Positions 2,288-45,041 of a DNA stretch of 64,000 nucleotides are shown in pieces. The first letter of the stretch is position 1, and each line of letters starts with the position of its first letter. Under the pieces are notes generated by a model, which was not told where the DNA came from, ran no database searches, and saw nothing but the letters and a program-made list of their open reading frames with translations. A program made the position numbers and the translations under genes. The stretch covers positions 620,001 to 684,000 of the forward strand of contig NZ_MWQK01000001.1 in the NCBI RefSeq assembly GCF_002210425.1. Direction: 5' to 3'. Origin of the DNA: Fibrobacter sp. UWB2 (GTDB lineage Bacteria > Fibrobacterota > Fibrobacteria > Fibrobacterales > Fibrobacteraceae).

Positions 2288-3853
2288 CTACCCTTGCGAG
2301 GTTTCAGCGAAGCTCAAGCGTTCGTAGTTTTTGAGCGCAAGGTTCAGGCGGTACTCATTCGGGAAGAGGCACACGAGATTGCGTTCCTTATCCATCATGC
2401 AATCGCCGGCGTATTCTTCAGCGAACTTGCCAACATCGGCTTCAGGGCCTTTCACCCAGCGGATGCAATGGGCGGGCACGCGGTCGAGCTGCACGTCGGC
2501 ACCGTATTCGCTCTGCAAACGGAACTTGAGCACGTCGAACTGGAGTTCACCCACAACGCCCACGACAGGCACAGCGGACTTGAGCGGTTCATAAAGCTGC
2601 GTTGCACCTTCTTCCGAAAGTTCGGCAAGGCCCTTCGCCATCTGCTTGGACTTGAGCGGGTTCAAGAGCGTCACGCGGGCAAAGTGTTCCGGAGCAAAGT
2701 CCGGGATGCCCGTGAAGTTCATCTTTTCGCCGTCCGTGAGCGTATCGCCAATGCGGAAAAGTCCCGGGTCGTTAATACCCACAATATCGCCCGCCCAGGC
2801 GTGGTCAATGACTTCCTTGTCCTTCGCGAGGAATGCGGTCGGAGCTGCCAAGCGGATGTCACGACCCGTACGCACGTGGAAAACCTTTTCGCCACGGGTA
2901 AAGCTGCCCGAGCAAATGCGGAGGAATGCCGTGCGGTCGCGGTGTTTCGGGTCCATGTTGGCCTGAATCTTGAAGACAAATGCGCTGAAAGCGTCTTCGT
3001 CCGGCTTGACCGGGCGCTTGTCGGTGTCGCGGATCATCGGCGGCGGAGCGAGTTTTGCAAAAGCGTTCAAAAGCTGACGCACACCGAAGTTGTTCACTGC
3101 AGAACCGAAGAACACCGGGCACATTTCGCCCTTCAGGAACTTTTCGTGGTCGAACGGATCCATACCGCCCGTGACCATTTCGTATTCTTCCTTAAACTGG
3201 TTCACCCAGTTTTCACCACAAAGTTCAACGAGACGCGGATCGTCCGGGCCTTCCATCTGGATAATCTCTTGCTTGCCATCGTCCGGGTTGAACGTGTGGA
3301 ACGTATTTTCGGCGATGGAATAGACGCCCTTAAAAAGCTTACCGACGCCAATCGGGAGCGTAAACGGAGCGGTCTTAATCTGCAAAACGCTTTCAATCTG
3401 GTCGAGCAAGTCAAGCACATGACGGCCATCCAAGTCCATCTTGTTGATGAACGTGATAATCGGCGTATGGCGCATGCGGCAGACATTCATCAAGCGAATC
3501 GTCTGCTTTTCAACACCATTCACGCTATCGATAAGCACGAGAGCAGCATCGACAGCGGTAAGCGCACGGTACGTGTCTTCGCAGAAGTCCTGATGCCCCG
3601 GGGTATCGACGAGGTTGAACATGCAACCTTCAAACGGGAAGTTCAGCACGGAACTCGAAACAGAAATACCACGCTGCTGTTCAATCTTCATCCAGTCACT
3701 AACAGTGTAGCTCTTGTTGGCCTTCGCGCGCACGTGACCAGCCTCGCGAATCACATTCCCGTACCACAGGAATTTTTCGGTGATGGTGGTTTTACCGGCG
3801 TCAGGGTGGCTGACAATAGCGAAAGTGCGGCGTTTTTCAATTTCTGGATTCAT
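2288..3853 (-). CDS. prfC: Peptide chain release factor 3 (RF3)
   Basis: GTPase that recycles RF1/RF2 from the ribosome after peptide release. Motifs visible are G1 SHPDAGKTT, G2 in the QQRGISV region, G3 DTPGHQDF and G4 NKMD. The C-terminal RF3-specific region includes the LQFDVLKFRLQSEY segment typical of the family. The ATG giving MNPEIEKRRTFAIV is chosen (521 residues, normal RF3 length). An upstream in-frame extension of 16 codons is possible but aligns with nothing expected. The region upstream is short and divergent from the DNA glycosylase gene. Confidence 0.96.
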   Translation of the reverse strand: MNPEIEKRRTFAIVSHPDAGKTTITEKFLWYGNVIREAGHVRAKANKSYTVSDWMKIEQQRGISVSSSVLNFPFEGCMFNLVDTPGHQDFCEDTYRALTAVDAALVLIDSVNGVEKQTIRLMNVCRMRHTPIITFINKMDLDGRHVLDLLDQIESVLQIKTAPFTLPIGVGKLFKGVYSIAENTFHTFNPDDGKQEIIQMEGPDDPRLVELCGENWVNQFKEEYEMVTGGMDPFDHEKFLKGEMCPVFFGSAVNNFGVRQLLNAFAKLAPPPMIRDTDKRPVKPDEDAFSAFVFKIQANMDPKHRDRTAFLRICSGSFTRGEKVFHVRTGRDIRLAAPTAFLAKDKEVIDHAWAGDIVGINDPGLFRIGDTLTDGEKMNFTGIPDFAPEHFARVTLLNPLKSKQMAKGLAELSEEGATQLYEPLKSAVPVVGVVGELQFDVLKFRLQSEYGADVQLDRVPAHCIRWVKGPEADVGKFAEEYAGDCMMDKERNLVCLFPNEYRLNLALKNYERLSFAETSQG

Positions 3854-42109: not shown

Positions 42110-43207
42110 TTAAATACTCGACTCGATAAATTCCTTGCGGAACGTCCCGTTGCCAAGCAAAATATCAATCGGCAGCTTGTGGAATTCATACTCGTACGGA
42201 GGCTGCTTCCACGCAAAGTCCTTCGGGTATTCGTTGAAAATGTACTGCAACAACTTCACCGCCATTTCAAAACTGCGGAACTTGTTACGGTCCGTCACGT
42301 GAATCTGCGCACCGCCACAAATCTGCCCTGCACCCTTGTGGAATGTCGGCTGGAAGTAGTTTTCGCGGAAATACACGCCCGGAAGCTTAAGCCCGTTCAT
42401 GTACTTGCAAAGCTTGACCGCATCGATAAACGGAGCGCCAAAGATTTCAAACGGACGCGTCGTGCCACGGCCTTCGCTCACGTTGGTCGCCTCAAACAAA
42501 CACATACCCGGATACACAATTGCAGTATCAAGCGTCGGCATGTTCGGGCTCGGCAAAATCCACGGGAGTCCCGTTTCATCGAACCACATGCGCTTATCGT
42601 AGCCGTCCATGTGCATCACATAAAGTTCGCACTTCGGGAATCGTTCGGCCTTGAACTGTTCGGCAAGTTCGCCAATCGTCTTGGCATGGCGCGTACGAAT
42701 GCTATGAAGCCCAACAAAGCTCGTGTAATTGAGGTCGAGCACCGGACCTTCCTCGTCCACGCAGTTAATCGGATTCGGGCGATCCACCACGACCACCGGG
42801 ATTCCCGCCTTTTCACAGGCCTTCATGCAGAGGAAGAGCGTCCAGATGAACGTGTAGTAACGCGCACCCACATCCTGCAAATCGACAAGCATAGCATCCA
42901 CGTGCGAAAGCATTTCTGCGGTCGGTTCGCGATGTTCACCGTAAAGGCTGTAAACCGGAATATGCAATTCCGGGTCTTCGTAGCCTTCCCATTCAATCAT
43001 GTTGTCTTGCGTATGCCCCTTGATGCCGTGCTGCGGGCCAAACAAAGCCGAAAGCTTAAAGAGCTTGCCATCCAAATCCTTGAGCAAGTCAAGCGTATAA
43101 CTCAAATCGGCACAGACCGAAGCCGGATGGAGAACCGCACCCAGGCGCTTACCACGAAGCGCTGCCGGAAAACTTTTTTCAAAATGAGAAAGAGCTAACG
43201 TAACCAT
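42110..43207 (-). CDS. namZ: Exo-beta-N-acetylmuramidase NamZ (DUF1343)
   Basis: About 365 residues. The DUF1343 hallmark segments are present: FGPQHGIKGHTQDNMIEWEGYEDPELHIPVYSLYGEHREPTAEMLSHVDAMLVDLQDVGARYYTFIWT, VVDRPNPIN and the later FEATNVSEGRGTTRPFE. NamZ-type enzymes (GH171) cleave terminal N-acetylmuramate from peptidoglycan fragments. No signal peptide is obvious, unlike some family members. ATG at 43207 is preferred over an in-frame TTG 15 codons earlier that overlaps the radical SAM stop. Adjacent to the YejE permease, consistent with cell-wall recycling. Confidence 0.88.
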   Translation of the reverse strand: MVTLALSHFEKSFPAALRGKRLGAVLHPASVCADLSYTLDLLKDLDGKLFKLSALFGPQHGIKGHTQDNMIEWEGYEDPELHIPVYSLYGEHREPTAEMLSHVDAMLVDLQDVGARYYTFIWTLFLCMKACEKAGIPVVVVDRPNPINCVDEEGPVLDLNYTSFVGLHSIRTRHAKTIGELAEQFKAERFPKCELYVMHMDGYDKRMWFDETGLPWILPSPNMPTLDTAIVYPGMCLFEATNVSEGRGTTRPFEIFGAPFIDAVKLCKYMNGLKLPGVYFRENYFQPTFHKGAGQICGGAQIHVTDRNKFRSFEMAVKLLQYIFNEYPKDFAWKQPPYEYEFHKLPIDILLGNGTFRKEFIESSI

Positions 43208-43232
43208 GTTTTTAAAGGTAGTAAAACCACCT

Positions 43233-44309
43233 TTAAACGCCAGCCGCTTCAAGCCGTTTCACATGGCAATATGCAAGTTCTTTTGTCCGCTCGTCACGCA
43301 AATGCAGGCTGGAGCCCTCGCAATAGCGCCAATACTTGCAAGTTTTACAGTCACCAATTTTCGCCCAGCTGCGGTCACGCATCACCTGATAGCGGTTCTG
43401 CCATACATCCCACAAGTCATCCTTGTAGATATTCCCTTGAATGTAATCCCCACGCAAGCTCGGGCATGCCGAAATACTTCCGTCACACAACACCGACGCA
43501 ATATTGACGCCCGCCCAGCAAAAGAACGGATTATCGCGAACGGCCTTTTCGTAACTGCCGAGAAATCCTTCGCAATCGTAGTTCACATTCATGAGATTTT
43601 GCTTCTTGGCTTCACGAATAAATTCAAATACTTGACGAAATTCTTGATTCGTAAGTTGGAACAGCGGATTGTCTTTTGCACGGCCTTTCGCAAAGACATT
43701 CGAAACACGCCAACGCTTGACGCCCAAATTTAAAAGCAAGTTATAAATCTTGGGCAATTCCTTAAGGTTCTTACGATTCACGCAAGTCATCACGTCAAAC
43801 GTAATGCCGTCCGTATGTGAGGCCATGTTGATGGCACGCACCGCACGTTCGAAGCTGTGCACATTGCCGCGGAAATGGTTATGATTATCTTCAAGGCCAT
43901 CAAGGCTAATCGTCAACGCACGCAACCCTGCATTCATGAGTTTCGTATAACGTTCTGGATTTAAAGCCATTCCATTCGTCACCATGCCCCAAGGGTATCC
44001 ACGCGACTTGATTTCTTTGCCGATTTCTTCGAGATCGGCGCGCATCAACGGTTCACCGCCAGTAATCACCACGATAAAATTGTTAGGATCGACATGGGGC
44101 GAAACGCCATCCAAGACCCGCATAAAATCTTCGCGAGGCATGTCCGGAATCGCATCGGCAACACAGTCGCTCCCGCAATGCAGGCAATGCAAATTGCAAC
44201 GCAACGTACATTCCCAAAAGAGGTACGTCAGCGGATGCGCCTTAATCTGGCTATGACGATAAAGGCGATGCGCTTCGAGCGCAAGAAACTTTTTAAAACC
44301 GAGATGCAT
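43233..44309 (-). CDS. Radical SAM/SPASM enzyme of the rSAM/lipoprotein type
   Basis: 358 residues. The radical SAM cluster motif is CNLHCLHC (C38, C42, C45) within WECTLRCNLHCLHCGSDC; extra Cys34 and Cys49 are also present. SAM-binding segments GGEPLMRADLEEIGKEI and NGMALNPERYTKL follow. The C-terminal SPASM region carries seven cysteines (264, 275, 282, 321, 324, 330, 348), enough for two auxiliary iron-sulfur clusters. Such enzymes modify peptides or proteins. The sequence around the first motif resembles, from memory, the rSAM_w_lipo group of Bacteroidetes. The gene lies 17 bases after a lipoprotein gene with repeated YG motifs, its likely substrate. Confidence 0.93.
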   Translation of the reverse strand: MHLGFKKFLALEAHRLYRHSQIKAHPLTYLFWECTLRCNLHCLHCGSDCVADAIPDMPREDFMRVLDGVSPHVDPNNFIVVITGGEPLMRADLEEIGKEIKSRGYPWGMVTNGMALNPERYTKLMNAGLRALTISLDGLEDNHNHFRGNVHSFERAVRAINMASHTDGITFDVMTCVNRKNLKELPKIYNLLLNLGVKRWRVSNVFAKGRAKDNPLFQLTNQEFRQVFEFIREAKKQNLMNVNYDCEGFLGSYEKAVRDNPFFCWAGVNIASVLCDGSISACPSLRGDYIQGNIYKDDLWDVWQNRYQVMRDRSWAKIGDCKTCKYWRYCEGSSLHLRDERTKELAYCHVKRLEAAGV

Positions 44310-44326
44310 ACGGAGTCAATTCCGAA

Positions 44327-44974
44327 TTATTTATCTTCTCCGCAAGAGCCGTCAAACGCGCAAGGAGGGCCGTAAAGAACAACGGTCTCATCAATGATAA
44401 TGGTATTATAATTCGCCCGGAATTCAGCTTCGTTGTAGACCTTGCCATCGCTGCATGTATAAACTTTATCCTTCACATAAACAACGCCATACTTGGCCGT
44501 AACTTCGGGCTTGTAAACAACACCATATTTTGCGGTCACTTCTGTCGGATCACGCGTTACAGGAGCCTGCTCTTCATCAGCCGTAGATTCAACGCAAGTC
44601 ACCCCATCGGTACATTCATAAACATTGTCACCTTGATGAGTCGTGCAAGTTTCCTTATCCATATAAACACCGTACAAGGGTACGACTTCTATTCCGCCAC
44701 TAGAGCTTTCTGCAATCGGAGAAGAACTTGAGGATTCTACGGAACTAGACGATTCTGCAGACGAACTCGACTGAACATCCGAAGAACTTGAAGACTGAGT
44801 TTCGACAGTCGAACTGGAACTTGAATTTTCTACGGACGAACTCGAATTTTGTCCATTCGTTGTACTTGAACTGGAATCCGGAAAGACAGGAGCCGTAGGT
44901 GAAGCTCCATTATCGCAGGCATTCCATAAGAATGTCGTCAGTGCAAGAAGAAATTTTTTCCAGTGTTTATACAT
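44327..44974 (-). CDS. Ser-rich lipoprotein with repeated YG motifs, likely radical-SAM substrate
   Basis: 215 residues from ATG 44974 (GGAG 8 bases upstream). Signal sequence ends at Cys20 (LWNAC; a weak lipobox). Residues 31-95 are a poly-Ser linker, as in many Fibrobacter surface proteins. The C-terminal part has four YG motifs: YGVY at 101, YGVVY at 150 and 162 (within a direct EVTAKYGVVY repeat), and YGPP at 201. Six Cys follow or lie between them (110, 121, 127, 174, 205, 211). The rSAM/lipoprotein systems pair such a YG-motif lipoprotein with the adjacent SPASM enzyme. A modification at Tyr or Gly is inferred. Confidence 0.85.
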   Translation of the reverse strand: MYKHWKKFLLALTTFLWNACDNGASPTAPVFPDSSSSTTNGQNSSSSVENSSSSSTVETQSSSSSDVQSSSSAESSSSVESSSSSPIAESSSGGIEVVPLYGVYMDKETCTTHQGDNVYECTDGVTCVESTADEEQAPVTRDPTEVTAKYGVVYKPEVTAKYGVVYVKDKVYTCSDGKVYNEAEFRANYNTIIIDETVVLYGPPCAFDGSCGEDK

Positions 44975-45012
44975 TTTACAGACTCCTTCAAAACCCATTC
45001 AACCACATCCTT

Positions 45013-45041
45013 AATATAACCAAACGATTGGGCATTTTCAA
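45013..45041 (-). promoter_or_regulatory. Sigma-70 promoter of the lipoprotein/radical SAM operon
   Basis: On the minus strand TTGAAA (-35, 5 of 6) and TATATT (-10, 5 of 6) are 17 bases apart. The predicted start lies about 30 bases before the lipoprotein ATG. This is the best-spaced promoter I found in the window. Confidence 0.65.

Follow-up and report, generated by a model that had tools for sequence, protein, structure and literature searches.

The window analysed here, a 64,000-nucleotide stretch of the genome of Fibrobacter sp. UWB2, carries on its minus strand a gene for a lipoprotein and, 17 nt beyond the lipoprotein stop, the ORF of a radical SAM/SPASM enzyme. The features of both are collected in Table 1. 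The likely start of the lipoprotein is the ATG at 44974, which gives a protein of 215 aa, because its relatives begin with MYKHWKK. In the ORF, the lipobox cysteine is Cys28 and the YG motifs stand at residues 109, 158, 170 and 209, in such a way that the first of them lies 81 residues past the lipobox. A preliminary description of the locus had reported a lipoprotein with a Ser linker and four YG motifs (YGVY, two YGVVY and YGPP), encoded just upstream of a SPASM radical SAM enzyme, with two repeat copies differing at synonymous sites in the DNA, and all of this held: 6 of the 10 codons differ between the EVTAKYGVVY copies, every difference being synonymous. It had also counted seven C-terminal cysteines in the enzyme. 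The count is right for the last 100 residues (C264, C275, C282, C321, C324, C330 and C348), and seven conserved cysteines remain, although the set changes, since the family conserves C246 but not C275.

Table 1. Features of the gene pair, in window coordinates, and two examples of related arrays, in the coordinates of their own loci
Feature	Position	Strand	Basis or remark
Lipoprotein gene, predicted multi-site substrate	44327-44998	minus	ORF of 223 aa; relatives compared
TIGR04133 radical SAM/SPASM enzyme gene, predicted XYG splicease	43233-44309	minus	ORF of 358 aa; family score and tree
Signal peptide and lipobox MYKHWKKFLLALTTFLWNAC, presumed recognition leader	44915-44974	minus	K-H-W-K-K-x2-L-x5-F-W-x2-C nearly invariant in 79 partners
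Ser-rich linker, residues 42-100	44699-44875	minus	read off the sequence
YG site 1, PLYGVY (Y109, PLYGVYM)	44669-44674	minus	motif positions
Repeat copy 1, EVTAKYGVVY	44513-44542	minus	YG site 2 (Y158) at 44522-44527
Repeat copy 2, EVTAKYGVVY	44477-44506	minus	YG site 3 (Y170) at 44486-44491
YG site 4, VLYGPP (Y209, VLYGPPC)	44369-44374	minus	motif positions
Radical SAM CxxxCxxC (C38, C42, C45), then G46 common to PlpX-type enzymes	44175-44198	minus	
SPASM domain, C264 to C348	43266-43520	minus	
Chagasin-like/KYG-array examples	L231 2605-3540; L237 2607-3806	minus	

A gene for a NamZ-type exo-muramidase lies at 42110-43252 of the window, its longest ORF overlapping the end of the radical SAM gene, and adjoins that gene only in the closest relatives. 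The NamZ, Omp85-like and MMPL neighbours were ruled out as partners because these flanks are not retained beyond the closest relatives.

The enzyme belongs to TIGR04133 (rSAM_w_lipo), with a score of 598.5 bits over positions 1-350 of the 350-position profile against a curated cut-off of 425 bits, and it carries the PF04055 and PF13186 domains (radical SAM with SPASM). The lipoprotein gave no match to TIGR04134 (lipo_with_rSAM, cut-off 39.8 bits), and we therefore take it as a variant partner, not as a member of that family; across the whole genome the best TIGR04134 score was 20.5 bits, below the cut-off, and no hit lay beside the two TIGR04133 genes. The second of these genes, which the preliminary description had missed, encodes an enzyme 83% identical to the first, with three more such lipoproteins upstream. 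Of 80 genomes of the genus, 71 have TIGR04133, as do 89 of 168 genomes of the phylum. At four loci (L042, L061, L094, L099) two TIGR04133 genes stand near each other, and the genes between or ahead of them encode several different YG lipoproteins. The family is common in Fibrobacterota and in Bacteroidota of the gut and rumen, yet no reaction is assigned to it in NCBIfam, and to our knowledge no member has been assayed. A search of the literature available here for TIGR04133 and TIGR04134 returned no paper, although an earlier description as a splicease family is not excluded, and a sequence search of the PDB found no solved splicease or close relative.

The genes upstream of the enzyme were examined at about 60 Fibrobacter loci. 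The length and body of the partners vary greatly, and what they have in common is the leader and the YG motifs, most of them carrying 2-8 YG, many past a Ser linker. YG is found 233 times in 79 non-redundant partners against 42.6 expected from composition, an excess beyond chance, whereas 226 neighbouring control ORFs showed no excess (186 against 216.5 expected). Within single proteins, 83 of 103 pairs of KYG sites differ at synonymous third positions, and the protein motif is therefore retained while the DNA drifts. The residue preceding YG, hereafter X, is most commonly L (104) or K (60), less often D, E or A, and the one following varies among V, C, I, A, P and T. Cys-Asp-Gly modules (CxDGxxYxxxEF) are also shared beside the YG motifs.

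The leader, KHWKKxxLx5FWxxC, is nearly invariant: the tryptophan at -3 is present in 78 of the 79 partners and the one at -15 in 74, the leucine at -10 in 77 and the histidine at -16 in 76. The columns of the KHWKK block (-17 to -13) and the one near -3 are biased, because the search pattern partly demanded that block and W, G, A, V or F near -3; the W before the lipobox is also present in partners found without the KHWKK pattern. The UWB2 genome has three KHW[KE]K sites, all of them beside the two TIGR04133 genes. KHWKK sites average about 3.7 per genome in 12 enzyme-bearing genomes, a few of them spurious, against four in total in nine members of the genus without TIGR04133, and none of six sites checked in genomes without the enzyme (one within the genus, five in neighbouring genera) belonged to a lipoprotein. 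In one genome that has the enzyme, a KHWKK-leader lipoprotein with two YG lies outside the TIGR04133 locus (L246, G003:C1:962809), as a possible unlinked substrate.

Outside Fibrobacter, the 80 top-ranked loci in a search of 84,980 species genomes were all from Bacteroidota, a ranking skewed in that direction because a Parabacteroides sequence headed the query. A YG partner was found upstream in 76 of the 79 usable loci (two passes combined, with differing criteria), the exceptions being L112, L131 and L170. The preliminary description had given Bacteroidetes partners one YG near the lipid anchor. Of the 70 distinct partners, 42 do have a single YG, usually at a distance of 4-35 residues from the lipidated Cys, whereas two are found in 19 and three or four in nine; X is mostly M or E. 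The layout in the window, with several YG past a Ser linker, is indeed different from that of the Bacteroidota partners, as had been proposed. Two Bacteroidota precursors (L138, L167) are only 46 and 50 aa long, the mature part extending scarcely beyond the YG motif. In other families of Fibrobacterota, the partner is either a TIGR04134-like lipoprotein (L065, L067) or, in another family (L071-L077, L080, L081), a secreted protein with one to four YG and a length of about 200-295 aa; no partner was seen at L070. The C-terminal part of these secreted proteins resembles a type IX secretion sorting domain, a resemblance only. YG is thus the element common to these differing scaffolds, with only Y and G constant. 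The preliminary description would have been refuted by an enzyme from an unrelated SPASM group and a lipoprotein without conserved YG motifs or co-occurrence across genomes, and this is not the case, both the motifs and the co-occurrence being found in the genus and in Bacteroidota.

In a tree of SPASM enzymes, TIGR04133 forms a single clade that joins TIGR04103, the GDL enzymes and their relatives with support of 97/92, and the same grouping was recovered at 98/90 in a second tree to which AhbD heme b synthase and further relatives were added. The joint group stands apart from mftC, nirJ, AhbD, TIGR04053 and TIGR04347. Five residues (G46, W200, G248, E254, S284) are present in 17-18 of 18 and 4-5 of 5 sequences of the two groups against 0-2 of 13 others. 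The window enzyme is about 29% identical to the Nostoc TIGR04103 enzyme and reaches 138 bits against TIGR04103, below the cut-off of 725, so it is not a member of that family. PlpX is assigned to IPR026482 (PMC11002830), which we take to be TIGR04103. We show, as a new result, that TIGR04133 groups with PlpX-type enzymes and that XYG partners are recurrent in that group, within a modest outgroup sample (14 rows in the second tree) and without PlpX itself in the trees.

The XYG partners of the joint group are of five types, those of TIGR04133 among them. A Nif11 peptide of Nostoc ends in SIALYGLPPELF, with the XYG site SIALYGLPP, and two GDL peptides carry RPYGPAM and QPYGAGI. There are exceptions, as some DUF1843 peptides of L107 and L108 lack YG, the Tropicibacter locus shows no obvious peptide, and L229 has no clear partner. 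On an Agathobacter rectalis plasmid (L106), an unannotated ORF ending at 3416 (plus strand) encodes a peptide of about 35 aa that ends in GPVMYGTGVRM (VMYGTG), directly upstream of a PlpX-like radical SAM gene. Ten Fibrobacter genomes (L230-L239) hold another PlpX-like enzyme with an upstream chagasin-like protein of 11-21 YG repeats, typically KYGYPCGVQDA (KYGYP arrays). The domain ahead of these arrays matches PF09394 with a best E of 0.00063, below the gathering score, and a profile of it searched against the PDB found no chagasin. Pfam matches to XylR_N and OTU1 on the arrays were discarded as spurious, since they are located on the repeats.

PlpXY excises tyramine at XYG, with a loss of 135.0757 Da, its natural sites being MYG and LYG and its tested tags including AVAAGYGVVFP and PIRPGYGLPI (PMC10533398). 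The four XYG sites of the window lipoprotein are LYG and KYG, and VTAKYGVVY and VVLYGPP are close to those tags. The modification had been described as unknown, which we correct by inference, since both the XYG motif and the enzyme's relatives point to tyramine excision; on balance we consider it probable, from sequence alone, that tyramine would be removed at these sites to leave electrophilic ketoamides. Several points weigh against this splicease reading. PlpX requires a partner, PlpY (PMC11002830, PMC10373908), and no small adjacent gene for a PlpY-like protein was found among the ORFs of the window locus, and the stretch ahead of the CxxxCxxC motif is only about 30 residues long. A sister position and about 29% identity need not mean the same reaction, and the placement of PlpX in its family rests on one review, the chemistry of the GDL family being likewise only inferred.

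With these reservations, we lean towards the gene pair being a maturation system for a surface lipoprotein, a proposal that remains inferred, whereas the pair itself, its family, the motif enrichment, the leader conservation, the co-occurrence and the enzyme phylogeny are shown. In the cytosol, the TIGR04133 enzyme would recognise the lipoprotein precursor, probably through its unusual signal peptide, which we infer with moderate confidence to double as the leader. The modified lipoprotein would then be exported and lipidated at Cys28, the Ser linker holding it off the membrane, and would display up to four electrophilic ketoamides with X being Leu, Lys, Lys and Leu. Their most likely use would be covalent protease inhibition, with X as the P1 residue. 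This is the leading guess because potent inhibition of proteases is reported for splicease products (PMC10373908) and a chagasin-like domain precedes the related KYG arrays, yet it remains a guess, and for the window lipoprotein we doubt such a protease-trap role slightly more than we credit it.

The alternative that survives best accepts the splicease and assigns the ketoamide array to attachment or crosslinking, with amines or nucleophiles on plant fibre, neighbour cells or the cell's own surface proteins as targets. It is possible, as ketoamides are electrophilic and the sites would be tethered at the surface past the Ser linker; the genus lives attached to plant fibre, and the secreted partners of the other family combine a YG block with a C-terminal domain resembling a sorting signal. 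However, the window lipoprotein has no adhesion domain, and the chagasin-like domain on the related arrays weakly favours protease inhibition. A different modification of Tyr-Gly, either a three-residue cyclophane linking the Tyr ring to the residue past Gly or another Tyr-derived crosslink, is unlikely: aromatic-x-x motifs are linked in this way by other SPASM enzymes (cited in PMC11002830), but the residue past YG varies widely (V, C, I, A, P, T, S) while Gly is constant, and maturases of the ranthipeptide, dynobactin and WgK types score far under the PlpX-type families. That the YG motifs are unmodified structural or binding elements, the enzyme acting elsewhere, such as on a conserved Cys (the Cys-Asp-Gly modules could offer one) or on the signal peptide, is very unlikely, because the Bacteroidota partners examined lack these modules, some of them holding little but YG, the sole element common to the several scaffolds.

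Returning to tyramine excision, a relative of a YG-cutting enzyme beside a surface lipoprotein with four YG suggests reactive, possibly protease-blocking surface groups. A bolder reading, which taken jointly is no more than possible, would have the surface of Fibrobacteria covered with lipoproteins bearing ribosomally encoded arrays of alpha-keto-beta-amino acids, made by a TIGR04133 splicease that needs no PlpY and reads the signal peptide as leader, the arrays being tethered covalent protease traps and the chemistry extending to the one- and two-site lipoproteins of gut Bacteroidota. If true, a backbone-altering modification known from cyanobacterial peptides would be common on the surfaces of anaerobic gut bacteria. 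The predicted loss of 135.08 Da per XYG, with products that tetrazine or hydrazine probes would trap, allows a direct and cheap test.

Compared with named systems, the GDL-motif radical SAM maturase (TIGR03913) with its DUF1843 peptides belongs to the same wider enzyme branch and has some PYG partners, but these are short peptides without a signal peptide and with at most one YG, some with none. The chagasin-like KYG-array system shares the genus, the wider branch and a multi-site KYG partner, and differs in its enzyme subgroup (about 485 aa), the absence of a lipobox, the N-terminal chagasin-like domain and the higher number of repeats. The TIGR04133/TIGR04134 system of NCBIfam has the same enzyme family, a lipoprotein directly upstream and YG past the lipobox. 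The window lipoprotein, by contrast, has neither a TIGR04134 match nor a carboxypeptidase-regulatory domain, it has four YG past a Ser linker and its own signal-peptide motif, and it does not meet the TIGR04134 trait of a YG near the lipid anchor (81 residues against 4-35 in most Bacteroidota partners). As for PlpXY of Pleurocapsa, the window activity is only predicted, the locus shows no PlpY partner, and the substrate would be a lipoprotein with a signal peptide and without a Nif11 or nitrile-hydratase leader; on the other hand, TIGR04103 stands in the sister group and shares the signature residues, and the spliceotide precursors have the same XYG target with nearly identical flanks and several sites per substrate.
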